Of a stretch of DNA of 64,000 nt, positions 2,571 to 47,514 are shown piece after piece. Below the pieces are notes generated by a model. It saw only the letters and a program-made list of their open reading frames with translations, searched no databases and was not told the DNA's origin. The first letter of the stretch is position 1, and each line of letters opens with the position of its first letter. The DNA lies in NCBI RefSeq assembly GCF_014207985.1, contig NZ_JACHMI010000001.1:2029001-2093000 (forward strand). The letters are read 5' to 3'. Made by a program: the position numbers and the translations under genes. This DNA is from Nonomuraea rubra. Its GTDB lineage: Bacteria > Actinomycetota > Actinomycetes > Streptosporangiales > Streptosporangiaceae.

Positions 2571-3098
2571 TTATTGCTCCCGCGCGATCCGCTGATCGCC
2601 TTCGAGTGTGAACAGCCCGAGCGGCGGCTCATCCAGGCCCACGAGCGGACCGGCCTCCCGCCAGCCCAGGCGGTGATACAGCCGGGCGGCGGGTGCTTGC
2701 GAAGAGGTGATCAGCCAGGCCTTGGGCCAGCCGGCGACGGCCTGGGACAGCAACGCGGAGGCGATTCCTTTCCCGCGGACCTCGGGGTGGACGAACAGGT
2801 CGACGACCTCGAAGGAGCCCGAGGTCATCCTGGAGACGGCGGGTGCACCGAAGGAGCTCTTGAGCAGGTCGTAGATCCGGCTGCCCGACAGATCGGCGGG
2901 GGTCGGCCAGCCATAGCAGATGCCGAGCAACCGCCCGTCGCGATCGCGTTCGACCCACGCCCTGAAGAAGGGATGTTCCAGGGCTTCCGCCAGGCGATCG
3001 GCGTAGGCGTCGAGTTGCTCGGGAGTCTCCGACCAGGGTGGGTCGGCGTAGCAGCGGCGGTACAGGGCGATGATTTCAGTGGGATTGAGCCGTGTCAT
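2571..3098 (-). CDS. GNAT family N-acetyltransferase
   Basis: This 175-residue protein has the acetyl-CoA-binding fold. Motif A is visible as VVDLFVHPEVRGKGIASALL (residues about 97-116; V-x-P-x-x-R-G-x-G-I-A), followed by a C-terminal LITSSQAPAARLYHRLGW, the usual beta5-alpha region in which an (A/N)xxxYxxxG element closes the site. The substrate cannot be deduced. Its ATG overlaps the stop codon of the upstream MFS gene by four bases (3095-3098, ATGA), so the two are translationally coupled. That suggests a joint role in detoxification, with the acetyltransferase modifying a compound the transporter handles, although this pairing is only inferred. Confidence 0.88.
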   Translation of the reverse strand: MTRLNPTEIIALYRRCYADPPWSETPEQLDAYADRLAEALEHPFFRAWVERDRDGRLLGICYGWPTPADLSGSRIYDLLKSSFGAPAVSRMTSGSFEVVDLFVHPEVRGKGIASALLSQAVAGWPKAWLITSSQAPAARLYHRLGWREAGPLVGLDEPPLGLFTLEGDQRIAREQ

Positions 3099-4111
3099 GA
3101 ATGCGCCGCCTTCTGGAGCCGCGTGATGGGCACGATGGTCAGCGTGGCCGCTGCGGCGAGGAGGATGAAGGCGAGGCGGAAATCGGCCGTGGCGTCGCGC
3201 AGGATGCCCACGAGCATGGGGGCCAGGGCGGCGAAGCCGAGCGCGGTCAGCGCGGCCGTCAGCGCGAGCCCCACGCGCAGGTCGCGCTGTTCGCCGAGCA
3301 CGGCAGGGACGGCCAGCATCGCGACCACCTGGATGCCGATCATCACGGTGAGCAACGTCCCGGCTCCGGCTCCGGGCCCGTTCTCCTGAAGCAGGGGCAC
3401 GATCCAGGCCAGTTCACAGTAGTACAGGGCGGAGTTGACCGCCGATAGCGCGGTCACCCGCCAGGCCACCCCGCTACGCCAGGGCAGCCCCGTGGTGAGT
3501 GGCCCCGCGGGGGCCGCCACCCGGTCCAGGGCCAGGGAACGCCGGGATGCCGCCCACGCCATCGCCCCGGCCAGCGCGAGCACCGACCAGGAGGCCAGCG
3601 CCCCCGGCCAGGAGCCGAGGAAGCCGGCCAGCGGTGCGCTGACTCCGGCCGCGACGGCGCCGCCCGCGCCGAGCCCGGCGGTGTAGATACCGGTGGCCAG
3701 GCCGGCCTGGTCGGCGAAGCGGCTCTTGACGACGGCGGGCAGCAGCGTCTGAGCGATGGCGATGCCGGCCCCGACGACCGCCGCGCAGCTCAGTTGCAGC
3801 CAGGTGGATCCCCCGGCGAGGCGGGCGGCGGTGGCCACGGCGATGACGACCAGGCCGAGCAGGACCCCGCGATGGAGCCCTAACCGGCGGCCCGCCACGG
3901 CGGCCAACGGCGCGCACAACCCCATGGCCAGCGTGGGAACGGTCGTCAGCAGCGCCACGCCGGTCGCGGTCAGATCCAGGTCGGCGCGGATGCGGTCCAC
4001 CAGCGGCGAGACCGCGGCGATCGCCGGCCGCAGGTTGGCCGCCGCCACGAACATCGCCAGCCCTGCCGCGCCGAGCACCTGCTTGTCGGGTGGCGAAGAG
4101 GTCAACATCAT
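3095..4111 (-). CDS. CynX/NimT-like MFS transporter, apparently internally shortened
   Basis: This 338-residue protein belongs to the cyanate/2-nitroimidazole (CynX/NimT) branch of the major facilitator superfamily. It has a membrane helix with AAANLRPAIAAVSPL near residues 20-35, the family's ANLRP(A)I signature, then ALLTTVPTLAMGLCAPLAAVAGRRLG. Family members are usually about 390-420 residues with 12 helices. Here the segment VGLALTAALTALGFAALAPM joins directly to LVGILRDATADF, so roughly 50 residues covering helices 9-10 seem to be missing in frame. The ATG at 4111 follows GGAG; an upstream TTG at 4135 is less likely. It is transcribed divergently from the Rrf2 gene across the operator at 4141-4184 and is coupled to the GNAT gene. 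Function after the deletion is uncertain. Confidence 0.75.
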   Translation of the reverse strand: MMLTSSPPDKQVLGAAGLAMFVAAANLRPAIAAVSPLVDRIRADLDLTATGVALLTTVPTLAMGLCAPLAAVAGRRLGLHRGVLLGLVVIAVATAARLAGGSTWLQLSCAAVVGAGIAIAQTLLPAVVKSRFADQAGLATGIYTAGLGAGGAVAAGVSAPLAGFLGSWPGALASWSVLALAGAMAWAASRRSLALDRVAAPAGPLTTGLPWRSGVAWRVTALSAVNSALYYCELAWIVPLLQENGPGAGAGTLLTVMIGIQVVAMLAVPAVLGEQRDLRVGLALTAALTALGFAALAPMLVGILRDATADFRLAFILLAAAATLTIVPITRLQKAAHS

Positions 4112-4140
4112 GGACACTCCAATGATCTCGGACAATCTCT

Positions 4141-4184
4141 ATCCGAGTTGTACCACAACTCGGATAATAAACATCCGAGTTGGG
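4141..4184. promoter_or_regulatory. RsrR/Rrf2 operator: 11-3-11 palindrome plus extra half-site
   Basis: ATCCGAGTTGT (4141-4151) and ACAACTCGGAT (4155-4165) form a perfect 11-bp inverted repeat with a 3-bp spacer. A third half-site, ATCCGAGTTGG, follows at 4173-4183 and pairs with 4157-4165 as a second, wider-spaced palindrome. It lies between the divergent MFS and Rrf2 starts, only 14 bases from the Rrf2 ATG. An 11-3-11 palindrome is the class 1 site reported for RsrR of Streptomyces venezuelae. Confidence 0.8.
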
Positions 4185-4197
4185 TAGGCTGGTGACC

Positions 4198-4677
4198 ATG
4201 AAGTTGTCCAACGGGGTGGAGTGGGCGCTGCACAGCTGCGTCACCCTCAGCCAGAGCCGCGAGCCCGTCCCCGCGGCCAGGCTCGCCGAGCTGCACGGCA
4301 CCCCTCCCGCCTACCTGGCCAAGCACCTGCAGGCGCTGTCGCGCGCGGGCATCGTGCACTCCACGGCCGGGCAAGTGGGCGGATATGAGCTGACTCGGCC
4401 CGCCGCCCAGATCTCGGCGCTGGAGGTGGTACGGGCCATCGACGGCGGCGAGCCCGCCTACCGGTGCACCGAGATCCGGCAGCGAGGCCCGCTCGCCCTC
4501 CCGGCCGAGCGATGCGAGCGGCCGTGCGCGATCGCGCGCGCCATGGCCGCGGCCGAGGAGGCCTGGGCGGACGCCTTGCGCCAGGTCACGATCGCCGACC
4601 TCGCCGCCCGCATCGACGCCGACAGCGAGGGTACGGCGATGGCCGCTGTCAGCCGATGGCTGGCCGCCACACGATAG
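4198..4677 (+). CDS. RsrR-like Rrf2-family [2Fe-2S] redox regulator
   Basis: This 159-residue Rrf2 protein has an N-terminal winged helix (AARLAELHGTPPAYLAKHLQALSRAGIV, residues 27-54, with the recognition helix and wing TAGQVGGYEL). Counted from the ATG at 4198 it carries Glu8, His12, Cys90, Cys106 and Cys110. Glu8, His12 and two cysteines are the unusual ligand set described for the [2Fe-2S] cluster of RsrR, whereas NsrR uses three cysteines and an aspartate. I therefore favour a redox-sensing RsrR homologue over NsrR or IscR. It probably represses itself and the divergent MFS-GNAT operon through the 11-3-11 palindrome directly upstream. The ATG at 4198 is preferred over an upstream GTG at 4180 because of these ligand positions. 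Confidence 0.85.
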   Translation: MKLSNGVEWALHSCVTLSQSREPVPAARLAELHGTPPAYLAKHLQALSRAGIVHSTAGQVGGYELTRPAAQISALEVVRAIDGGEPAYRCTEIRQRGPLALPAERCERPCAIARAMAAAEEAWADALRQVTIADLAARIDADSEGTAMAAVSRWLAATR

Positions 4678-4841: not shown

Positions 4842-5489
4842 TCACGCGTGGCCGTGTTCCCAGGCCCAGGCGGCGATGCCCACGCGGTTGCGCACCCCGA
4901 GCTTGCGCTGGACGTTGGCCACGTGGGTCTTGGCGGTGCCGGCCGAGATGAACAGCTCGGCGCCGATCTCGGGGTTGGACTTGCCTGCGGCGACCAGTTT
5001 GACGATCTCCAGCTCGCGGTCGCTCAGGGGCTGTTCGCCCGGCGCGCCGGTGCGGGTGGGTGATGGGGTGAGGTGGCGCAGCAGGCGTACGGTCACCGAG
5101 GGGCTGATCAAGGCATCGCCTGCGGCCGCCGCTCTGATGCCCTCCACGAGGAGCACCGGCCCCGCGTGTTTGAGCAGGAAGCCGCAGGCTCCTGCGCGGA
5201 GCGCGGCGTGCACGTACTCGTCGAGGTCGTAGGTGGTCACGACGATCACTCGCATCGGCGCCGCCGCCTCGGGGCCGGCCAGGCGCCGGGTGAGTTCGAG
5301 CCCGTCCATGCGCGGCATGCGGATGTCGGCGACGACCACGTCCGGCCGGAGCTCGCGGGCGAGGCCGAGCGCGGTCACGCCGTCCGGCGCCTCGCCCGCC
5401 ACTTCCAGGTCCGGCTGGACATCGAGAATGGTGCGGAAGCTGCGCCGGATGGCCGGCTGGTCGTCGGCGATCAGAACCCGGATGGTCAT
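4842..5489 (-). CDS. NarL/FixJ-type response regulator (module 1)
   Basis: This 215-residue protein has a receiver domain with acidic pair Asp9-Asp10, phospho-acceptor Asp55 (VVVADIRMPRMDG) and a conserved switch Thr (VIVVTTYD). The C-terminal LuxR-type helix-turn-helix is LSDRELEIVKLVAAGKSN through TAKTHVANVQRKLGVRNR. The start at 5489 overlaps the kinase stop codon (ATGA), so the pair is translationally coupled. It should activate or repress genes after phosphorylation by the adjacent kinase. The divergent membrane-protein gene at 6721 is the obvious candidate target. It closely resembles the regulator at 46885-47514, including the receiver sequence and the AWAW C-terminus. Confidence 0.93.
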   Translation of the reverse strand: MTIRVLIADDQPAIRRSFRTILDVQPDLEVAGEAPDGVTALGLARELRPDVVVADIRMPRMDGLELTRRLAGPEAAAPMRVIVVTTYDLDEYVHAALRAGACGFLLKHAGPVLLVEGIRAAAAGDALISPSVTVRLLRHLTPSPTRTGAPGEQPLSDRELEIVKLVAAGKSNPEIGAELFISAGTAKTHVANVQRKLGVRNRVGIAAWAWEHGHA

Positions 5490-6610
5490 GGGAACACCGC
5501 CTTCACGACCCAGCCGCCGCCGGCGCCGCGGCCAGAGGTGAACTCGCCGCCCAGTGCCTGCACCCGCTCGGCCAGCCCGGCCAGGCCGACGCCGGTGCGT
5601 CCGGCGGACGGCAGGCGCGGCGGGGCCTGGTCGCGCGCATGGTCGGCCACGGTCACGACGACTGTCCCCGTCTCGTCGGTTACCTGGATGGCCACGCTGG
5701 ACCCGGCCGGCGCGTGCTTTCTGACGTTGGTGAGCGCTTCGACGACGATGCGGTAGATCGTGGTCGCGACCTCGCGCGGCACCGGGCCGGAGGGCTCGAC
5801 ACGCAGCTCGGTGCCGGGGAACCCCGCGTCGGCGAAACGCCGTACCAGCTCGGGCAGGCCGTCGAGCCCGGGCAGCGGCTCGGCGGAGGCGCTCTCGCCC
5901 TCCAGTTCGCGCAGCATCCGCACGGTCCGGTCCATCGACGCCAGCGCCCGCGCGCCGTCCTCCTCGATCGCCCGCAGTGCGGCCGCGGCCTCGGCCGGAT
6001 CGCGGTCGAGCAGGATCTGCGCCGCCTGGGCCTGGATGACCATGGCGCTGACGTCGTGGGCGACGAAGTCGTGCAGGTCGCGGGCGAGCTGCAGGCGCTG
6101 GGTGCGGCGGGCTTGCCTGACCGCGTCGATTCGGCGCCGGTCGAGGGTGCGGAGATAGGCGCCGAGGCCGATCGCGCCTCCCGTGCCGACAGACCAGAAG
6201 AGGGTGAGGGCGACCGCGTCGAGGCCTGAGGGCGGCGGCTGAGTGATCTGCAACGCCAGCAGCGCCTCGGAGATCGCCGCCACCCCCACCGCAGGGACTG
6301 CCTGCCGCGCGGCGGCCCAGCGCACGGTCAGCGTGATGAGCGTGAGCACGGCGACCGTGTGGACGTAGGTCGACGGGCCGCCGGCGATGCCGGGATCGGC
6401 AAGCCAGGCGAGCGTGCACGTCGCGCCGGCCACACCGGTGGCCGCCGTGATCGCCGCGAGGCGGGGGCGCGCCCTCGGCCACCAGACAAGCGACATGGCC
6501 GCGGCCGTGAGCATCGCGGGCACGACGACGAGCGGGCTGGGGAGCGGCCGGAGCGCGAGTGCGAGCGCGAACGCACCGGCTGCCACCAGCCCGCCTGCAA
6601 GGAACCTCAT
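5486..6610 (-). CDS. NarL-family sensor histidine kinase (module 1)
   Basis: This 374-residue kinase starts with about five to six membrane helices (residues 1-155) and short loops, so no large extracellular sensor is present and the signal is probably perceived in or at the membrane. The dimerisation and phospho-acceptor box is LARDLHDFVAHDVSAM (HisKA_3 type), with the histidine in LHDF. The HATPase region shows VVEALTNVRKHA (N box) and GVGLAGLAERVQALGG (G2 box). It is the first gene of a kinase-regulator operon (4-bp overlap) and is divergent from the membrane protein at 6721. The kinase at 45839 has the same box and topology. Confidence 0.92.
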   Translation of the reverse strand: MRFLAGGLVAAGAFALALALRPLPSPLVVVPAMLTAAAMSLVWWPRARPRLAAITAATGVAGATCTLAWLADPGIAGGPSTYVHTVAVLTLITLTVRWAAARQAVPAVGVAAISEALLALQITQPPPSGLDAVALTLFWSVGTGGAIGLGAYLRTLDRRRIDAVRQARRTQRLQLARDLHDFVAHDVSAMVIQAQAAQILLDRDPAEAAAALRAIEEDGARALASMDRTVRMLRELEGESASAEPLPGLDGLPELVRRFADAGFPGTELRVEPSGPVPREVATTIYRIVVEALTNVRKHAPAGSSVAIQVTDETGTVVVTVADHARDQAPPRLPSAGRTGVGLAGLAERVQALGGEFTSGRGAGGGWVVKAVFP

Positions 6611-6720
6611 GGCGGCACCTTAGGGCAGCGGCCCGCGCCGGCGAATCGGCCGATCGGCAGATGTCTTCCTGCCCGCGTGAGCGCAGTCTGGGTCCCGACC
6701 CTAGAAATCAGGAGGCGACG

Positions 6721-7257
6721 ATGACGATCAATCTGCTGCACAAGGCTCCGGCCGCCAGCGACACCGAACAGCCCGTCCCCCGCTGGGCGATGCGTGCCGC
6801 CTACGCGCTTCCCTGGCTGCTGCTGCCTTCGTGCCTGTGGAGGTTGCCGTTCGCCTTTCACTTCGAGATGGGTCAGCTCGACGACGCGCCTGTGTCGCCG
6901 TTGTGGATCACCATCCCGTACGTGTTCGGGCTCAGTGTGCTCACGGAATTGGCGGCGCTGCTCAGCATCGGTCTGGTGCGCCGGTGGGGCGAGGTGGTCC
7001 CGAGTTGGATCCCGGTCATCGGCGGCCGCCGCGTGCCACCGATGGCGGCGGTCGTTCCTGCCGTGACCGGTGGACTGGTGCTGAGCGCGGTCTCGGTGTG
7101 GATGGTGCTCACCTGGCTCGGCTTCTCCGAGCGTATGGCGTACGAGAACGGCTGGTGGCAGGCGCTGGCCATGGTCTGCATCACCCCGCTCGCGCTGTGG
7201 GGCCCGACCGTGCTCGCCCTGGCCTACGCCTACCACCGGCGCCGCCGCCACGCCTGA
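6721..7257 (+). CDS. small polytopic membrane protein, RWGE-GRRVPP family (module 1)
   Basis: This 178-residue protein has four predicted membrane helices (near residues 24-40, 62-84, 104-128 and 144-168). AGGAGG directly precedes the ATG at 6721. A distinctive loop, RRWGEVVPSWIPVIGGRRVP, joins helices 2 and 3 and recurs in the proteins at 11473-12024 and 44719-45717. LPSCLWRLPFAF after helix 1 recurs in the former. No known catalytic motif is present. All three paralogues are divergent from a two-component system, so this protein is probably its target or its signalling partner. I do not know a characterised homologue. Confidence 0.85.
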   Translation: MTINLLHKAPAASDTEQPVPRWAMRAAYALPWLLLPSCLWRLPFAFHFEMGQLDDAPVSPLWITIPYVFGLSVLTELAALLSIGLVRRWGEVVPSWIPVIGGRRVPPMAAVVPAVTGGLVLSAVSVWMVLTWLGFSERMAYENGWWQALAMVCITPLALWGPTVLALAYAYHRRRRHA

Positions 7258-7303: not shown

Positions 7304-8875
7304 TCAGCCGGAGGGCATCAGGTCGCGGCGGCGCAGCAACGCCAGCCCCGCCGCGCCCAGGGTGACGGACAGCACGGTCAGCCCCAGCAGGGGCGCCACC
7401 GGTGAGGAGGAGCCGCCCAGCAACATCGCCGGCACGTGCACGAACGGCGAGAGGTCCAGGACGATCCCTGTGGCCAGCTTGAACTCCGCCAGCAGATCCA
7501 CGACCAGGAAGAGGCCGAGCGCGGTCCAGCTCACGGCGGTCGCCAGCCGTGGCATCAGGCCGAACAGCAGGGTGGCGAGCCCGGCCACGGTCCAGACCGC
7601 GGGCAGGTAGGCCAGCGTGGCCCCGGTGACGCGGGCCACGTCGCCGTCGTAGGTGAGCCCCGCCGCCGCCCCCAGCGCGGTCAGCAGCAGAACCGGGCTC
7701 AGGAAGGCGAACAGCAGGTGGCTCAGTGCCCAGCGCAGCCGGCCGATGGGGGTGGACAGCAGCAGCTCGGCCCGGCCCGCCGCCTCCTCGCCGCGGGCGC
7801 GCAGCGCCGACACCAGCGCCGCCCCGGCGACGAGCTGGCTGAGCACGTACATCACGAAGGTGAAGAACACATCCGAGATCGGTGCGCCGGCGCCGCCGAT
7901 GGTCGCGGCCAGCTGCTGGAACTGCGGGGTGTCCAACTGGGCGTCCAGCCCGCGGGCCGCCACGCCGAGCAGGGCGCCGAGCGCACCGAAACCGATCGCG
8001 AAGCCCGCGAGTGTGCTCCGGTGCAGCCGGGCGGTCAGGCCGAACGCGCCCGGCAGCGTCCCGGTGGCGGGTCCGGGGCGGGCGGGGATCAGGCCGCCGG
8101 CCACGTCACGGCACGTGGACAGGGCGAACGCGACCGCCGCCAGGGCGGCGACGAACACCGCGATCAGCCCCAGCACCCACCATCGGTCGTCGGCGTAGGG
8201 TCTGGTCAGCCGGACCCAGCCGAACGGCGACAGCCAGGCCAGCCAGCCGGCACCGCCGGTGTCGGCCAGCGAGCGCAGTGCGAACAGCAGGCCGCCGATG
8301 GCGATCGCGATGCCGCGCGCCGTGCCGGATGACGCGGTGAGCTGCGCGGTGATGGCTGCGACGGCTGCGAACGCCCAGCCCCCCGCGGCGGTGGACAGGC
8401 CGAACAGCAGCGAAGATCCCGCGGGCAGGCCGCTCGTGACCAGGGCGGGTACGGACAGCAGACCCAGCAGCAGGTTGGCGGCCAGCACGACCGTGAGTGC
8501 GGCGGCCAGCGGGGCGTGACGGCCGATGACGCCCGAGGACAGCAGCTCGCGCCGGCCGGTCTCTTCCTCGAGCCGGGTGTGCCTGATCACCAGCAGGATG
8601 CTGATCAGCCCGCCGATCAGCGCGAGGGAGGAGCCGAGCGTCCAGGCGGTCAGACCGCCGACGCTCGCGTCGTGGATGGGGCCTCGCATGGCCAGCTGCG
8701 CGGGATTGCTCGCCGAAGCCGCCGCGAAGGCGTCGCGGGCGGCCTGATCGGCGTACAGGTCTGTGGTGGCAGAGGCGATGCTCGCCGGCAGCAGCGCCGT
8801 GATCGCGATCCACACCGGCAGCAGCACCCGATCCCGGCGCAGGATGAGCCGGATCTGGGTCCAGGTGCCGGTCAT
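7304..8875 (-). CDS. ABC-2 type exporter permease, two-half fused form
   Basis: This 523-residue integral membrane protein has about twelve hydrophobic segments in two similar halves, each starting with a short cytoplasmic helix and a large loop. The pattern, including [18 protein letters not shown] in half one and [20 protein letters not shown] in half two, is that of permeases of the tetronasin/antibiotic-resistance exporter type. It is the last gene of a TetR-ATPase-permease operon, and its ATG overlaps the ATPase stop codon by four bases. It presumably exports a hydrophobic compound or antibiotic using the ATPase as motor. The substrate is unknown. Confidence 0.88.
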
Positions 8876-9762
8876 CTGGCGGCTCCCTCGTAGTGGCGCA
8901 GGAACAGCTCCTCCAGCGTCGGCGGCTGCGTGACCAAGGTGCGTACGCCCGCCGCGGCCAGCTCGGCGAGCACCGCGGTGAGCGCGTCAGCGTCCACCTG
9001 GCAGCGCAGCCGCGCGCCGTCCATGGTCACGTCGTGTACGCCGGGCAGGGCGGCCAGGCCCGGGGCGGGCCCGATCAGCTCGGCCGTCACCGAGGTGCGG
9101 GTGAGGTGGCGCAGGTCGGCCAGGCTGCCGGTCTCGACGGTACGGCCGGCGCGGATGATGCTGACGCGGTCGCACAGCGTCTCCACCTCCGACAGGATGT
9201 GGCTGGACAGCAGCACGGTGCGGCCGTCGCGCTTCTCCTGCATGACGCACTCGTTGAAGACCGCCTCCATCAGCGGGTCGAGGCCCGAGGTCGGCTCGTC
9301 CAAGACCAGCAGTTCGACATCGGAGGCGAAGGCGGCCACGAGCGCGACCTTCTGCCGGTTGCCCTTGGAGTAGGTGCGGCACTTCTTGCGCGGGTCGAGC
9401 TCGAAGCGTTCGAGCAGGTCGGCGCGGCGTCCGGGGTCGAGGCCGCCGCGTACCCTGCCGAGCAGGTCGATGACCTCGCCGCCGGTCAGCGAGGGCCACA
9501 GGGTGACGTCGCCGGGCACGTAGGCGAGCCTCCGGTGCAGTTGCGTGGCGTCGTGCCAGGGATCGCCGCCGAGTAACGTGATCCGGCCGCCGTCGGCGCG
9601 CATCTGACCCAGCAGGATACGGATCGTGGTGGTCTTGCCCGCGCCGTTGGGGCCGAGGAAGCCGTGCACCTCGCCGGTTGCGACGGTGAGGTCGAGCTCG
9701 TCCAGTGCCCTGGTCCGGCCGAAGGTCTTGACCAGGCCGTCGGCGTGCACCGCGGCGGTCAT
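8872..9762 (-). CDS. ABC exporter ATP-binding protein
   Basis: This 296-residue nucleotide-binding subunit has Walker [10 protein letters not shown] (residues about 38-46), a signature region [15 protein letters not shown] that replaces the canonical LSGGQ, and Walker [11 protein letters not shown], followed by the H-loop SSHILSEVE. The YSKGN form of the signature is usual in this exporter subfamily. A C-terminal 80-residue extension ([11 protein letters not shown]...[12 protein letters not shown]) is also typical of drug-resistance ATPases. It is translationally coupled on both sides (4-bp overlaps with TetR at 9759 and permease at 8872). Confidence 0.92.
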
Positions 9763-10385
9763 TGTTGTCCCTCGACTTTCTCCAGGCCCGTCCGCGCCTG
9801 GTCGAACAGCTCGCGGCCGAGGAATTCCGGTCTGATCAGGTCGAGCTGGGCCTTGCCGACGCGCAGCGCGCCCTGCTGGGCGTAGAGGTCCGTGCCGAGG
9901 GCGCGGGAGACGTGCTCGTGCAGCACCGTGATGCCCAGCTTCATCGCCGTCAGTACGGTCGCGCGGGCGCGGTGGTCGGCCTCGGAGTGCTCGCCGCGGG
10001 CGAGGTGCCCCTCCGTCACGCTGACGAGTTCGTCGAACATGGCGGCGGCCGCGGGCGAGCCGTCCACGAGCGCGCGACCGAGGTACTTCATCAGGGGCGG
10101 CGCGGTGCGGTGAACGTTCTCGATGAACTCGGGCTTGGCCAGGTTGCGGTCGGTGACGCCTACGTTGACCTGCTCACGCATGTAGCTGAGGACGTACTCG
10201 TCACAAGCCTGTCTCAGCGCTTCCTTGGTGCCGAAGTGGTGCTGCACCAGGCCTGGCGAGACTCTGGCGGTCTCGGCGATCCCGCGGATCGTGGTGGCCT
10301 TGACCCCTTGCTCGGCGAACAACGCCATCGCGGCGTCGCGGATGCGGGCGCGCGTGGTCAGGTCTTCTTCCGATATTGGTCGCAC
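9759..10385 (-). CDS. TetR-family regulator of the ABC exporter
   Basis: This roughly 208-residue TetR protein has an N-terminal helix-turn-helix ([20 protein letters not shown], then [16 protein letters not shown]) and an all-helical ligand domain. The GTG at 10385 is chosen because a TTGCAC-N17-TATAGA promoter ends about ten bases upstream, leaving almost no leader. A TTG at 10391 is an alternative. It heads the operon with the ATPase and permease, all with 4-bp overlaps, so it most likely autorepresses the whole operon and is relieved by the exported compound. A small palindrome overlapping the -10 element (10398-10409) is the likely operator. Confidence 0.88.
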
Positions 10386-10394
10386 GTACAAGAG

Positions 10395-11472: not shown

Positions 11473-12024
11473 TCATGGTTCGGTCGCGAGAGTGAACGGT
11501 GCAGAGGAGCGATCCTGCTGGGCCGGATCCCCGCGCCGGTTCCTGTGCGGCCGGACAAGTTGAGCGACGAAGCAGGCGGTCCACAAGACCGTCAGGATCC
11601 CGGCGCCGAGGGCGGCGGGGATGACAGCGGCGGGCGGCGGCACCCTACGGCCACGCAGCCCGGGAACCCAGCGTGGAAATCGCTCGCCCCAGGTGGCGAC
11701 CAGCCCGAACGCAGTAAACGCCACCAGCTCCGACAGAACCGACAGGAAGACGATGTAGGCTCGCTCGCCCACCCCCATCCCGTCGCTGAACGCGGCCGGG
11801 AGTCGCCAGAGGCTGGACGGCAGTACGGCGACCGGGATGGCATAGACGGCGATTCGTGCCCAGCGGGGAACCCCGGTCACCGGGGCATGCGCGGCCCTCC
11901 ACGCGCGACGCAGCCGCCCGATGGTCGCCGGCGAACCAAGCGGAGTAGCCCCGGTTGATCCTTGTGGTCCGGCGGTCACCGTGGGCGATGGCGCCGTACG
12001 GACCGTCTGATCAGTTGTCGTCAT
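11473..12024 (-). CDS. polytopic membrane protein, RWGE-GRRVPP family (module 2)
   Basis: This 183-residue protein starts at the ATG at 12024 (MTTTDQTVRT). The family features are VAVLPSSLWRLPAAF after helix 1 and the loop ATWGERFPRWVPGLRGRRVP between later helices, closely matching the proteins at 6721-7257 and 44719-45717. It ends soon after the third helix with a polar, Arg-rich tail, shorter than module 1, so the last helix may be lost. Its start codon overlaps in opposite orientation with the first possible ATG of the decayed kinase gene (12023). This preserves the divergent arrangement seen for the other two copies. Confidence 0.75.
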   Translation of the reverse strand: MTTTDQTVRTAPSPTVTAGPQGSTGATPLGSPATIGRLRRAWRAAHAPVTGVPRWARIAVYAIPVAVLPSSLWRLPAAFSDGMGVGERAYIVFLSVLSELVAFTAFGLVATWGERFPRWVPGLRGRRVPPPAAVIPAALGAGILTVLWTACFVAQLVRPHRNRRGDPAQQDRSSAPFTLATEP

Positions 12025-12995
12025 GCCGCTCACGCTAGAAACGCTGACGCCGGGGCGCGTGCTGGTGTTGTGGGCGGCGTGCCTGCCCGCCTCAGTGCTG
12101 CTCGCCATGACGCCCGTGATGCCGGCGTCTGGAGATGGCCGCGCTGTCGGAACTGCTTGACGTCGACGTGCCCAAGCGGGCCGACCGCGTCTACCTGGTG
12201 GCCCTGACCAGCCTGCACCTGTACGGCGGCGCCACGCTCAGCGCGGGCCTGCTGGCGCTGTCTCCCGGACTGATCCCGCTCGGCGGACTGACGCATGAGG
12301 GGCCCGGTGAGCCGGTCGAGGCACTCCTGCTCGCCGCCACCGTACTGGCCGCGATGGTCTCCGCCGGATTCGGCCAGCGCTGGGCAGCGCGCCGGCTGCT
12401 GCGCAGCGAGCCGTCACGGGTGATCGACGAACTCGGCCGCCGCCAGACCCCTGCCCTAGGGAACTGCACGACTCCGTCGGCCACGCCCTGAGCGTCGTCC
12501 TCGTGCAGGCCATGGCCGCCCAGGCGGCGCCGCGGCGGACCGAGCCCACGCTCGCCGCACAGTCGCTCGATCAGCTGACGGCCACCGCCCGCCACGCCCA
12601 GCAGGACCTCGACGTGCTGCTGAGCGTGCTCGACGACGGCATCACCACCGGGAGCCACACGCTGGAGGCGCTCGACACGCTCACCCGCGGCCTCGACGTG
12701 CACGCGAGCGTCGGGCACCTCGACAAGATCCCGGCCCCCGACCTCGCGCGCGGCCTTCGCCATCGCACGGGAGGCGCTCACCAACGCCCTGCGTCACGGG
12801 CGCGGCCCGGTCACGCTTGACGTGGCCGTCGGCACCGACCTGGTCCTGATGGACAATGCGACCGCAGGCAGCTCCGGTAGGCAGGGGGGGGGCGGTCTGA
12901 CCGGCATGCGCATGCGGGCCGGCCTGGCCGGCGGGACGTGCACCTGGGAGGAGACGGGCGGGACGTGGCGCGTACAGGCGAGGCTGCCGCTGTGA
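12023..12995 (+). pseudogene. two-component sensor histidine kinase, multiply frameshifted (module 2)
   Basis: Three frames together spell a NarL-family kinase: membrane segments from 12135 (SLHLYGGATLSAGLLALSPG and VEALLLAATVLAAMVSAGFG), then ELHDSVGHALSVVLVQAMA (about 12465) as the H box, then AIAREALTNALRHGRGPV (about 12760) and TGMRMRAGLAGG as HATPase N and G boxes. Frameshifts occur near 12455 and 12755, so no intact kinase can be made. The stop at 12993-12995 overlaps the GTG of a response-regulator stub. Its H box differs from the kinases in modules 1 and 3, so this module recruited a different kinase subfamily. Confidence 0.75.
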
Positions 12996-13036
12996 TCCGG
13001 GTCGTCCTGGCCGACGACGAGAAACTGATCCTCGAC
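12992..13036 (+). pseudogene. response regulator stub (module 2), cut by IS remnant
   Basis: GTG at 12992 overlaps the kinase stop (GTGA) and begins a classic receiver domain, VIRVVLADDEKLI, with the acidic pair in place. After about 14 codons the similarity ends and DNA from the opposite-strand transposase remnant follows. The remaining receiver and the DNA-binding domain are gone. This junction marks the boundary of an insertion or deletion. Confidence 0.7.
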
Positions 13037-13620
13037 CGTGGATCCGAGAGGCCGTGTCGATCACCAGGGTGGGTTGTGCAAGGGCGGGCGGAGGGGAGCC
13101 TGTACGAAGTTCCTGATCGCCTGGGTGACCGGCGGTCGGGTGCGCGGTGGTGCCGAGCACGCGGACGGGTCCGGTGGCGTGCTCGATGATGGCCGGGATG
13201 TACTGGCGTTGCCCGTCCAGGGTGATGGTCTCGATGAAGTCGCAGGCCAGGAGGGTGTCGGTGTGCGAGCGCGGGAAGTCGGCGGGACGCTCGCTCGGGC
13301 GCCGGATCAAGGCCGGCCTGTTCGAGGATCTCCACACCGTGGACGGCGCGACCTTGATACCGAGCGTGGTGAGCTTGCCGGTAGCCCCAGCCGGGGTTCT
13401 CTCGAACCAGGCGCAGAATGTGGGCGCGGATGGAGTGGACTGTGGATGGGCGGCGCCTGGGCCGCTTCGGCCGGCAGATACGAGCGTGACGTTGCCTCGT
13501 CAGATCGCGGTGCCGGTGCGGGACGGTGATCTGGTGGCGCAGGGCGAGAGTCTCGACGCCCTTGTCCCGAGCGCCGATGGGCGGCAACCGTAGCGCGGCG
13601 AAGGCATACATGGCCCATGA
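13037..13620 (-). pseudogene. integrase-core (IS3/ISL3-like) transposase remnant
   Basis: Minus-strand frames give GVETLALRHQITVPHRHRD near 13560, RAHILRLVRENPGWGYRQAH near 13400 and, after a frameshift, LACDFIETITLDGQRQYIPA near 13230, the start of the DDE integrase core (first catalytic Asp in ACDF). The rest of the core is missing where the sequence abuts the response-regulator stub at about 13036. It belongs to the same general family as the copies at 1030 and 31285 but is a separate, more decayed insertion. Confidence 0.75.
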
Positions 13621-13909
13621 CCTGGGTGGATGTCATTGCTGGCGGACGCAAGGTCGGATCTTGTCGTCAACGTAACAGCCGTATCAGGCTTTGACCAGAT
13701 ACAGGCGGAAGTTCTGACTCTTTCGCCGCTACTTGTTGACATTTCGCTGAAAATGGCGCGTACTTCGATCGAAAGTCGATCTAACTTCCCCTCTACGACA
13801 CCACCGATCACGACGCGGCCGGTCCAGCCCTAGACCCGCATCGCGCGCGAAGGCAGCGTCCCGAGCACCCGCAAGACACCCTCACGCAAGCGTCATCGAT
13901 TGGGGAACC

Positions 13910-44718: not shown

Positions 44719-45717
44719 TCACGTCGCGACGAGCAGCGGCATCTGCCCGTTTGCGTCGTCCTTGCGGCGCAGGTGGTAGGAGACGGTGGCGGTGGCCAGC
44801 GCGGCGCCCCAGATCGGCCAGAAGCACTCCGGCAGCCAGGCACCCCATTCGGACACGGCGAACCGGCCTGCGATCGTCCACCGAATGTAGGTCAGCCCGG
44901 CCACAGTAACGATGATCGAGACGAATGCGGCCGGGATGACCGCCAGCAGGGGCGGTACCCGCCTGCCGCGCAGGCCGGGAATCCAGCGTGGAAAGATCTC
45001 CCCCCACCGCTGAGTCAGCCCAAGGGTGAGCACGCCGCCGAATGCGCCGAAGGTCGCCAGATAGGCGCCCGCCAGCCACAGGCCGTCCTCGCCTTCGGCC
45101 AGGAACTCCGGGCTCACGCCGAGCGGGATGCCCAGCGCCCACGCCCACCGGGTGGCGCAGTACACCAGAGGCACCACGACGGCCACGTACACGGCTGTGC
45201 GCCCCCGCTGCGGGGTGAACCAGCGCGTACGGACCTGACTACGGCCATACGCCAGCGCCGCGGCGCCCAGCAGCAGTCCGCCCAGCACGCAGACGAGCTG
45301 ATTCAGGACGGGCCATGGCCAGGCATCGGCGAAAGTGGCGCCCCCCAGGCTCCAGCCGAAGACCGGCGCCACCAGCAGCAGCGGCGTGTAGGCGACGCCC
45401 ATCATCAGCCGCGAGTCCGGAACAACCAGGACCAGGATGACGGCGATCGGCCAGGCCAGGAACAACGGAGTACGACGATCGCTCCTGCGGGTAAGTGCCA
45501 GCGCCGTCACTGCGGTGAGCAGGCTGAATGTGGCAATCCACCAGCCGAAGCGGGGCGTCGTCCCGGCCAGGACCGACAGCGCCCCGTCCGGGTCCGGGTC
45601 TGAAGCGCCCCAGGGGAAGCCGGGCAGCCCGAGCGCCCACGCTGAGCCGAGCACGCCATAGGCCAGCGCCCACAGCGCCGCCGCGTAGCCTCGCCAGGCA
45701 GAAGTGATGGGTTTCAT
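44719..45717 (-). CDS. polytopic membrane protein, RWGE-GRRVPP family, long form (module 3)
   Basis: This 332-residue protein starts at the ATG at 45717 and has about eight predicted helices. The C-terminal half matches the two shorter paralogues (6721-7257, 11473-12024). It carries the loop TQRWGEIFPRWIPGLRGRRV followed by PPLLAVIPAAFVSIIVTVAG, and CATRWAWALGIPLGV in place of the LWRLP motif. The N-terminal half adds about four helices with no clear family. It is divergent from the kinase-regulator pair at 45839-47514, with a large palindrome in between. Its function is unknown; the recurrent pairing suggests that it is regulated by, or signals to, the two-component system. Confidence 0.85.
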   Translation of the reverse strand: MKPITSAWRGYAAALWALAYGVLGSAWALGLPGFPWGASDPDPDGALSVLAGTTPRFGWWIATFSLLTAVTALALTRRSDRRTPLFLAWPIAVILVLVVPDSRLMMGVAYTPLLLVAPVFGWSLGGATFADAWPWPVLNQLVCVLGGLLLGAAALAYGRSQVRTRWFTPQRGRTAVYVAVVVPLVYCATRWAWALGIPLGVSPEFLAEGEDGLWLAGAYLATFGAFGGVLTLGLTQRWGEIFPRWIPGLRGRRVPPLLAVIPAAFVSIIVTVAGLTYIRWTIAGRFAVSEWGAWLPECFWPIWGAALATATVSYHLRRKDDANGQMPLLVAT

Positions 45718-45755
45718 GTGATCAGCGTCGCCGGGTGACAGCCCTGCGGACCAGA

Positions 45756-45799
45756 TGCCGTTCGGCACCTCCGGCCGCCGGCAAAGGTGCCGAACGGCA
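45756..45799. promoter_or_regulatory. 15-14-15 palindrome between membrane protein and kinase (module 3)
   Basis: TGCCGTTCGGCACCT (45756-45770) and AGGTGCCGAACGGCA (45785-45799) are exact inverted copies. Each arm also contains its own small palindrome, GCCG-TT-CGGC or GCCG-AA-CGGC, so the element could bind two regulator dimers. It lies 39-82 bases from the membrane-protein start and 40-83 from the kinase start. It is the most likely target of the module 3 response regulator, or alternatively a strong cruciform. Confidence 0.7.
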
Positions 45800-45838
45800 C
45801 CTGCGGCCGGATTTCAGTATGGACGTATCGTCGGTCCG

Positions 45839-46945
45839 GTGAGCTGGATGTGGATTGCCGTGTCGATATCGCTGCTGGTTCCCGTAGCAGTGGCGGCCGC
45901 GGTGCTGTCGCGGCCGTCGTTGGGGTCGCGTCTGCCTGCGCTGACGTGTGTGGCCGCGGCCGGGTCGCTGGCCGTCACGCTGGCTCACGTCATCAGCCCT
46001 GCACAGCCCGAGCCGGGCGCCGCCGCACTGGGGATGATCGAGAGCCTGGCGCTCATGGCGCTGGTCGGCCTGGTCATCCGGTACGCGCCGGCACGGCGGG
46101 CGACTGTGGCCGCGTCTGCGGCAGGCATGGCCGCGGCCACGTGGCTGCTGCGTTTCTTCGCTCCTGCCTCGCCGCTGGAAGGGCTGGGCGCGTGCGTGTT
46201 CTGGGGGTTGGGTGCGCTCCTGGCCGCCGTTGTGGGAGGTTACCTGCGTTTTCTCGATGTACGGCAGACCCGCGCCGTGGCCGACACCCGCACCGCGTTG
46301 CGGCTGCAGCTGGCCAGAGACCTACACGACTTCGTCGCCCATGACATCAGCGAAATGGTGGCGCACGCCCAAGCCGGCAAGGTCGCGGGCGACCCGGTGC
46401 AGGCGCTCGAACGCGTCGAAGCGGCAGGCCAGCGCGCCATGTCGATGCTGGACCGCACCCTGGACATGCTCCACCACAACCGGCTCCCCAACTCTACCGG
46501 TGACCTCAGCGGCATACGCGAGGCGGCCGAACGCTTCTCCGCCGCTGGTCCCGCGCCGGTCCACCTGCGCATGGACCCGGAGGTGACGGTCCCGGCGGAG
46601 ACCGCGGCCCTGGCCTACCGGATCGTGATCGAAGGACTCACCAACGTCCGGCGGCACGCGCCGCAGGCCAGCCGCGTCGACCTGAGCATCTGCGCTGGGG
46701 CCGGCCTCCTGGAGATCACGATGACCAACGATGGCGTGAGACGAGCGCGAAGCGGCCGACGCGGCGGGTCCGGCCTGCCAGGCCTGACCGCCCTCGTGGA
46801 GGAACAGGGCGGCGAACTGGTGACGCAGGCCGTATCGGATGGGTGGTCGATGACCGCGCACCTGCCGCTGGCACAATCGCCGGAGTGTCCACCCGCATCC
46901 TCATCGCCGACGACCAGGAAGGCATCCGAAGCGCCTTCCGCATGA
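45839..46945 (+). CDS. NarL-family sensor histidine kinase (module 3)
   Basis: This 368-residue kinase starts at the GTG at 45839. About five membrane helices (1-150) contain no large external domain. The H box is LARDLHDFVAHDISEM, almost identical to module 1. The HATPase N box is VIEGLTNVRRHAPQ and the G box GGSGLPGLTALVEEQGG. The frame continues past the usual end into AQSPECPPASSSPTT, overlapping the response-regulator gene by 61 bases. It forms an operon with that regulator. Confidence 0.9.
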   Translation: MSWMWIAVSISLLVPVAVAAAVLSRPSLGSRLPALTCVAAAGSLAVTLAHVISPAQPEPGAAALGMIESLALMALVGLVIRYAPARRATVAASAAGMAAATWLLRFFAPASPLEGLGACVFWGLGALLAAVVGGYLRFLDVRQTRAVADTRTALRLQLARDLHDFVAHDISEMVAHAQAGKVAGDPVQALERVEAAGQRAMSMLDRTLDMLHHNRLPNSTGDLSGIREAAERFSAAGPAPVHLRMDPEVTVPAETAALAYRIVIEGLTNVRRHAPQASRVDLSICAGAGLLEITMTNDGVRRARSGRRGGSGLPGLTALVEEQGGELVTQAVSDGWSMTAHLPLAQSPECPPASSSPTTRKASEAPSA

Positions 46946-47514
46946 TCCTCGACGCCCAGCCCGACATGACGGTCGTGGCCGAGGCCGCCGACGGCCGCAC
47001 CGCGATCGACACCGCCAAGGCGATCAAACCCGACGTCGTGCTCGCCGACATCCGGATGCCCGGAGCCGACGGCATCGAGGTGGCCCGTGCCCTGGCCGAC
47101 ACCGACATCCACGTGGTGATCGTCACCACCTTCCATCTCGACGAGTACGTCCACGCGGCACTGCGGCACGGCGCCGCCGGGTTCATCCTCAAACGCTCCG
47201 GCCCCACTCTGCTCATCGAGGCCATCAGGGCCGCGATGAACGGCGATATGCTCATCAGCCCGCAGCTAACCGTCCGGCTGCTACGCCAACAGGGCCTGCC
47301 GCACGAGACACCGACCGTCGTCCTCACCGAGCGGGAAGACGACATCGTGGCACTGCTCGCGCACGGCAGGACCAACGCCGAGATCGCCGCGGAACTCTTC
47401 ATCTCTCCGGGCACGGTCAAGAACCACATCGCGGCCATCCAGCGCAAGACCGGCGCCAGAAACCGCGTCGCCATCGCGGCCTGGGCATGGGCAACCGGCA
47501 GAGCCGAGCCCTGA
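46885..47514 (+). CDS. NarL/FixJ-type response regulator (module 3)
   Basis: This 209-residue protein starts at the GTG at 46885 inside the kinase gene. The receiver has Asp9-Asp10, phospho-acceptor Asp55 (VVLADIRMPGADG) and the VIVTTFHLDEYVHAALRHGA region seen in module 1. The C-terminal LuxR helix-turn-helix is LTEREDDIVALLAHGRTN to VKNHIAAIQRKTGARNR. It probably binds the palindrome at 45756-45799 and controls the divergent membrane protein. It converges with the TetR gene at 47566. Confidence 0.92.
   Translation: MSTRILIADDQEGIRSAFRMILDAQPDMTVVAEAADGRTAIDTAKAIKPDVVLADIRMPGADGIEVARALADTDIHVVIVTTFHLDEYVHAALRHGAAGFILKRSGPTLLIEAIRAAMNGDMLISPQLTVRLLRQQGLPHETPTVVLTEREDDIVALLAHGRTNAEIAAELFISPGTVKNHIAAIQRKTGARNRVAIAAWAWATGRAEP

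Follow-up and report, generated by a model that had tools for sequence, protein, structure and literature searches.

The 64,000-nucleotide stretch of the Nonomuraea rubra genome analysed here, hereafter the window (G000:C1:2029001-2093000 of a 12.9-Mb genome), carries at positions 4842-7257 a small membrane-protein gene that lies back to back with the genes of a two-component system. The membrane protein, M1 (6721..7257, plus strand), has 178 residues, belongs to the 4-helix branch of its family and has 292 relatives, the closest named ones being proteins from Nonomuraea. On the minus strand lie K1 (5486..6610), a HisKA_3 histidine kinase with a hydrophobic N-terminal half (Pfam HisKA_3, 1.1e-12; HATPase_c, 4e-9), and RR1 (4842..5495), a NarL-type response regulator that overlaps the K1 end (Response_reg, 1.2e-25; GerE, 1.2e-18). 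This divergent layout had been proposed in an original prediction made from the DNA letters alone, and the domain matches bear it out. Such membrane proteins (M) recur beside kinase-regulator pairs; this recurrent module is real, and its new part is a palindromic candidate operator.

In module 1 a single asymmetric box, TGCCGATCGGCCGAT (6645..6659, minus strand, core 6648-6659), lies between the two genes, and is a candidate RR1 site as well as one of exactly two matches of its form in the genome. The centre of its core is 43.5 bp from the K1 start, 30 bp from the hexamer CAGTCT (6684..6689, plus strand), the predicted -10 element of M1, and 31 bp from TAAGGT (6617..6622, minus strand), the predicted -10 element of K1. 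M1 has a conserved Arg-rich loop, RWGEVVPSWIPVIGGRRVPP (6982..7041, plus strand), whose core is also kept at loci without a kinase. The nearest solved kinase to K1 is DesK (E 1.2e-7).

A third copy, foreseen at 44719-47514, is intact and has the same divergent layout as module 1. M3 (44719..45717, minus strand; 332 residues from the inferred start) belongs to the 8-helix branch, K3 (45839..46945, plus strand, start inferred) is a HisKA_3 kinase (Pfam HisKA_3, 1.5e-6), and RR3 (46885..47514, plus strand, start inferred) is a NarL-type response regulator (Response_reg, 2.9e-25; GerE, 2.6e-17). Here two boxes are found, TGCCGTTCGGCA on the M3 side (45756..45767) and TGCCGAACGGCA on the K3 side (45788..45799), 32 bp apart from centre to centre, and about 45 bp upstream of each start, that of M3 (45717) and that of K3 (45839, inferred), lies the centre of one box; the shorter starts of K3 and M3 were preferred because the long frames begin in the boxes or cross them. 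The predicted -10 elements, GACGCT for M3 (45724..45729, minus strand) and TATCGT for K3 (45826..45831, plus strand), each lie 32 bp from the near box. As the original prediction stated, K1 and K3 have near-identical H boxes (RLQLARDLHDFVAHD in both); by eye, their N-terminal halves are made up of hydrophobic segments and show no soluble sensor domain. Beyond the window, a fourth copy (L001, about G000:C1:4710000-4712700) forms an M4-K4-RR4 operon on one strand with 15 bases from M4 to K4; M4 itself occupies L001 6601-7689 (G000:C1, about 4711600-4712700). Over 328 residues, identity between K1 and K3 is 36%; when all copies are compared with module 1, identity to K1 is 37% for K3 and 44% for K4, and identity to RR1 is 61% for RR3 and 68% for RR4.

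The stretch between M and its kinase (K) holds a palindrome, TGCCG-WW-CGGCA (TGCCGWWCGGCA), which, judging by where it occurs, is probably the switch joining the M genes and their two-component systems. Sites no more than 350 bp upstream of M were counted, one mismatch being allowed; 0.027 per stretch is expected from the rest of the loci, and 8-helix loci were defined by a score above 150 with the 8-helix profile. Among divergent 8-helix loci 17 of 18 have the box, in 16 cases without any mismatch; it is present at 7 of 13 operon loci and, among divergent loci of other branches, at 3 of 13, each of them M1-type. Of the 8-helix loci without a pair, 1 of 7 has the box, and there the pair is located 5.9 kb away; of the six others, which count as boxless, two (L130, L168) have two-mismatch copies. 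In the M1 branch the box lies between M and K at all five loci with the pair (the window, L002, L004, L007 and L008), and no box was found upstream of M at the pair-less loci L003, L005, L006, L012 and L175. Where boxes are paired, their centres are usually separated by 32 or 42 bp, three or four helical turns (41 bp at L102), and L098 has a third box.

The longer forms of the box are confined, in the window's genome, to modules 1, 3 and 4. There the asymmetric form, TGCCGWWCGGCNGAT, has exactly two matches, at M1 and M4, and a narrower form found M4 alone. When the two-box form was searched with a gap of 18-32 bases in 30 Nonomuraea genomes, 13 sites were obtained and none in the reversed control; 12 are at promoters of 8-helix M genes (M8), 11 of these directly between M and K, while the stretch read around the thirteenth, in G007 (L212, G007:C1:1185310; L220), contains no M, kinase or regulator. 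A search of 394 genomes of the class returned, besides the window's own site, two others, each located between M8 and K, giving 14 of 15 distinct two-box sites at M promoters. Their gaps are 19 bases once, 20 nine times and 30 four times, the site not at M having a gap of 27. A one-mismatch scan of the window yielded 6 sites against 1.06 expected, three of them (877, 16400, 50069) away from M genes.

The distance from box to promoter is also fixed within narrow limits. A hexamer NANNNT, whose chance is about 2.7% per position, starts at +30, +31 or +32 from the box centre in nearly every promoter, at M in 27 of 28 (4, 8 and 15 cases) and at the kinase in 19 of 20 (2, 9 and 8 cases), the count having been widened from single distances to this range; none starts at +33 to +35 in either set. 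Such a box-to-promoter layout is that of an activator touching the -35 region, and we infer an activator-type layout at both M and kinase promoters.

The association between M and the kinase-regulator pair is real for the 8-helix branch and narrow for M1's own branch. Across the genus Nonomuraea, 77 loci were tabulated, leaving out G014:C2:3222065, a 44-residue frame at G012:C29, matches outside the genus, second pieces of split genes and the later M1-type locus L215. At 46 of these loci (some are remnants, the second copy in the window included) M has a kinase no more than 1.5 kb away; by branch, the figures are 31 of 38 8-helix loci and 15 of the 39 remaining ones. The divergent arrangement described in the original prediction holds for 31 of the 46 pairings and is not universal: 13 are operons with the kinase downstream, one is convergent and one has the kinase upstream on the same strand. 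In 44 of the 46, therefore, the M promoter is next to the system or stands at its head. In the M1 branch, of which the best 80 of 133 relatives found were sampled at loci from named genomes (12 of the 80 loci shorter than 12 kb), kinase and regulator adjoin M at only L002, L004, L007 and L008; no kinase was found within 1.5 kb at L003, L005 and L006, which are close Nonomuraea loci, and at 73 others. Looser scans of this branch gave weaker kinase- or regulator-like matches at least 2.7 kb from M at L005, L015, L018, L020, L021, L024, L025 and L051. M genes without the pair occur in many genera, and M1-type genes of Streptomyces and others lack it. Most homologues in the M1 branch (76 of 80 loci) thus lack adjacent two-component genes, which by the standard set in the original prediction refutes it for that branch; for the 8-helix branch this is not so.

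Outside the genus, the 8-helix profile matched in 14 of 296 genomes sampled across the phylum, the window's own genome included; among the 13 others a kinase lies beside M in four (L146-L149) and none was found at L133-L136, L150-L153 and L119, the last read with 1.5 kb flanks. In a sample of 120 genomes of the family, M8 was present in 40, with 47 match rows, of which the 28 best-scoring new loci were read (2 from the same genus, 26 from other genera) and 16 rows remained unread. A kinase is present at 20 of these 28 loci (16 divergent, 2 classed as co-directional, 2 convergent), and the box was found in 13 of the 20 and in none of the 8 without a kinase. At one locus, L278, M is flanked on one side by a divergent kinase with two boxes, and another kinase follows downstream of the same M gene. 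The linkage was also read from the kinase side, with kinase profile A3 applied to 30 Nonomuraea genomes and at most 67 candidates scored per genome. Thirty kinases of the K1/K3/K4 subfamily score at least 290 bits, the next one scoring 242, and M lies within 450 bp of 28 of them, the new M1-type locus L215 included. Of the remaining two, that of G010 has M 5.9 kb away and that of G042:C11 has no M in the stretch read. In G010 (L217 6030-11860), about 6 kb of other genes split the system from M; both boxes stayed by M, and none with up to one mismatch was found near the kinase.

Module 2 is a broken copy. The original prediction counted three copies paired with a kinase and regulator, which stands for modules 1 and 3; in copy 2 the kinase is split and the regulator ends at residue 14. 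M2 (11473..12108, minus strand) is a truncated paralogue that has lost its C-terminal part, the kinase 2 remnant (12017..12992, plus strand) is split over frames and lacks its N-terminus, and the regulator 2 remnant (12989..13030, plus strand) comprises the first 14 residues only. Intact versions of M2, its kinase and its regulator are found in a relative, Nonomuraea thailandensis (L126), where both modules lie about 7 kb apart. Against L126, the window's kinase 2 is matched in pieces that lie in different frames (12017-12121, 12063-12458, 12461-12736 and 12744-12992), and some 35 N-terminal positions of the query have no match; the matches of M2 and kinase 2 overlap (12017-12057), and therefore the stretch between these two genes is gone. 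Module 2 may have been broken by an insertion. By eye, the frames after the end of regulator 2 (window 12989-13651) resemble a transposase remnant.

The histories of M and of its kinase appear to be separate. The kinase of module 2 had been assigned to another subfamily than K1, and its intact L126 version indeed falls in another clade. The two trees disagree: the partner kinases of M2 and M6 group in one clade and those of M1 and M7 in a second, whereas in the M tree M1 and M2 are sisters. Constraining the M tree to hold M2 and M6 as a clade was rejected (p=0.0004), as was M1 with M7 (p=0.00009), and so was a kinase tree with the M1 and M2 kinases as a clade (p=0.0001); these were quick trees, with a program warning of long branches that meet, and the groups were picked after seeing the trees. 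The type of box tracks the clade of the partner kinase and not that of M. By these comparisons modules 1, 3 and 4 share related parts and module 2 is best read as a re-pairing, which lends support to the earlier suggestion that the association goes beyond common descent of the whole block, as M2 is paired with a kinase of another clade and matching histories are rejected. Another palindrome, approximately CTCCC-N8-GGGAG by eye, is seen in M2-type and M6-type intergenic regions (the second module of L126, L127, L128, L141, L143, L144, L154 and L173), and it is perhaps the site of the different regulators of these modules.

The membrane proteins themselves have a loop, RWGExxPxWxPxxxGRRVPP, which is common to M1 and M3, as had been noticed, and takes the form TWGERFPRWVPGLRGRRVPP in M2. 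M1 matches the C-terminal half of M3 (hhalign probability 99.3), and M3 has an extra N-terminal half, so that the lengths are unequal; the match between the two halves of M3 (probability 39.7, E 0.0003) is only suggestive of an internal duplication. Searches of Pfam and NCBIfam gave no family for M1 at E up to 1 and nothing above the cut-off for M1, M2 and M3, and no solved relatives of M were found by sequence at E up to 1. The helical model of M3 is confident (pLDDT 89.5 over the 349-residue frame), and a structural search with it gave no convincing match. Some relatives of M are labelled DUF3995 in UniProt names, a family which we take to be Pfam PF13160; none of 16 members (alignment A5) matched such a Pfam model with the E limit set at 10 and the tool's filters on, and no mention of DUF3995 was found in the literature searched. 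The loop had been proposed as the link to the kinase, which was not supported: its core, in a loose pattern, is present at all four M1-type loci with the pair and retained in 72 of the 76 without such a kinase beside M. By this pattern the loop is part of what the family itself does and is not tied to the kinase. Two or more CxxC[G/S] motifs occur in 46 of 108 members of alignment A6, one in 6 and none in 56; in many 8-helix members the two motifs lie in a loop and at the C-terminus, M3 having none, and a metal site is possible in the members that carry them.

The neighbouring genes were also compared. When crudely called genes were clustered, no other gene cluster was found beside M1-type genes outside Nonomuraea in more than 11 of 81 loci (the 80 loci and L001), and therefore context assigns no function to M1 outside the genus. 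Within the window, transporter-like and Rrf2-like genes (named by eye) lie at 3095-4677, beyond RR1, with relatives 74-95% identical near the module in L007 and L008, and an ABC permease, an ABC ATPase and a TetR-like regulator (by eye) lie at 7304-10391, between modules 1 and 2.

The original prediction held that kinases 1 and 3 may sense M itself or the envelope state that it creates. Taken together, the DNA data indicate in the first place that M is what is regulated, and by its setting M behaves as the output of a membrane-facing sensor. Each intact module is likely to be a two-component switch that activates itself and is dedicated to one membrane protein, its main output, in the manner of DesK-DesR-des. 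The membrane-embedded HisKA_3 kinase would phosphorylate its NarL-type regulator, which would then bind TGCCG-WW-CGGCA immediately before the predicted -35 region, at both promoters of a divergent module or at the single promoter of an operon. Binding would activate the M gene along with the kinase-regulator pair, in a presumably self-reinforcing loop with M as its chief output; the signal may be the state of the membrane, as for DesK, and M may change or protect that membrane. This reading is preferred because of the gene order, its recurrence, the position of the box, the rarity of its longer forms, the joint loss of box and system, the separate pairings and the fixed distance between box and hexamer. 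A broader claim, that RWGE/GRRVPP proteins define a new class of three-component modules in which M is the near-sole output of a private system, reports its own abundance or the membrane state that it makes to the kinase, and in which the module has been copied and re-paired within genomes with a private operator each time, is offered only tentatively.

Several points weigh against the self-activating switch. M1's own branch is mostly without the system (76 of 80 loci), the kinase profile was built partly from the same loci that it counts, outside the genus only the top-scoring loci were read, and the hexamer pattern was noticed in the sequences before it was counted. With one mismatch, the box is also found at 3 of 24 other loci without a kinase, and it is missing at six operon-type 8-helix loci, which form one subfamily (L106-L108, L137, L138, L167), at the divergent 8-helix locus L166 and at ten divergent loci of other branches. 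Across the genus the asymmetric form has 37 matches (control 3), of which 11 are at M promoters and 26 away from any known M (21 read and without M, 5 unread). The bare 12-base core is present at 45 places in the window's genome (control 11); of the 43 core sites besides module 3, 23 were read, none with M and three with a kinase- or regulator-like match within 1 kb (L221, where the box is inside the kinase frame, L233 and L234). Because of these bare cores and off-M asymmetric boxes, other targets of the regulators are possible.

Other explanations of the same arrangement were weighed. M could be an accessory sensor or brake of the kinase in a three-component system, as LiaF is for LiaS, binding the kinase in the membrane so that its own induction ends the signal. 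The tight linkage of M and kinase in both directions, the kinases that by eye have no soluble sensor domain, and the same box governing M genes and kinase would all fit such a role, but the proposed contact loop persists in nearly all M1-type loci lacking the kinase, the kinase of M2 comes from a different clade, Pfam gives no LiaF domain for M1-M3 and M is found alone in many genera, so that we regard this role as rather doubtful. It is unlikely that the regulator represses M and its own operon, with the signal lifting repression: boxes near both promoters are compatible with it, and repressors too use palindromic sites, but the centres of the boxes fall some 43-45 bp before the inferred transcription starts and beyond the -10, a position typical of an activator, and the M -10 hexamers are poor (for example GACGCT), as in activator-dependent promoters.

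Mere chance has in its favour the roughly 93 HisKA_3 matches in the 12.9-Mb genome, which put kinases beside many genes, and the M1-type genes of Streptomyces and others that stand without the pair. Against it, the same kinase profile found 11 matches in 314 kb of flanks 1.5-6 kb away, or 6 in 298 kb at 73 loci without the window and the doubly counted L126 (0.06-0.1 per 3 kb over both counts), as compared with a kinase at 46 of the 77 loci; moreover, the longer box forms lie mainly at these promoters and the arrangement recurs in other genera. As a general account chance neighbourhood is hardly credible, and for the 8-helix branch it is already refuted by these counts.

Module 1 qualifies as a NarL-type two-component system in general, with a HisKA_3 kinase paired to a GerE regulator. 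In the literature matches listed on intramembrane sensing, divergent NarL systems, Nonomuraea two-component systems and gene neighbourhoods, nothing comparable was found, and the box strings occurred in papers that apparently deal with mouse muscle and heart. The LiaFSR and VraTSR envelope-stress systems combine a membrane kinase without a sensor domain, a NarL-type regulator and a neighbouring membrane protein, and the present module resembles them in all three respects. It differs in that M1-M3 have no Pfam LiaF match, have 4 or 8 helices, and that M appears to be the main target. An anonymous membrane-protein family of soil actinomycetes thus becomes testable, with a predicted operator, a predicted regulator, a predicted main target and parallel copies, several of them in a single genome. 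It is difficult to assign kinases that have no sensor domain, and here the DNA indicates the output; if the reading is true, the re-pairings would also let changes in kinase and operator specificity be tested.

The closest parallel is DesK-DesR-des of Bacillus subtilis, whose genes are neighbours in the order des-desK-desR, the order also of M4-K4-RR4, and whose regulator DesR has nearly a single target. DesK is described as a kinase with no extracellular domain and five membrane helices per protomer, which reads membrane fluidity and thickness and induces des via DesR (PMC6879721, PMC3996569). Module 1 shares with this system a HisKA_3 kinase and a NarL-type regulator (Pfam HisKA_3, HATPase_c, Response_reg and GerE). 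Its kinase may likewise have a sensor part of membrane helices and no extracellular domain, the sequence reading by eye as hydrophobic segments, and its regulator may likewise act mainly on one membrane-protein gene: the longer box forms are confined to M promoters in the window's genome, but the bare core is more widely scattered. In contrast, the divergent promoters here have one or two boxes, several copies exist per genome, and M1, M2 and M3 match no Pfam or NCBIfam family above the cut-off and are thus no desaturases, which is why the module falls outside DesK-DesR-des. If the proposed reading is true, it would provide a second DesK-like model of how bacteria read the state of their membrane, this time in actinomycetes.

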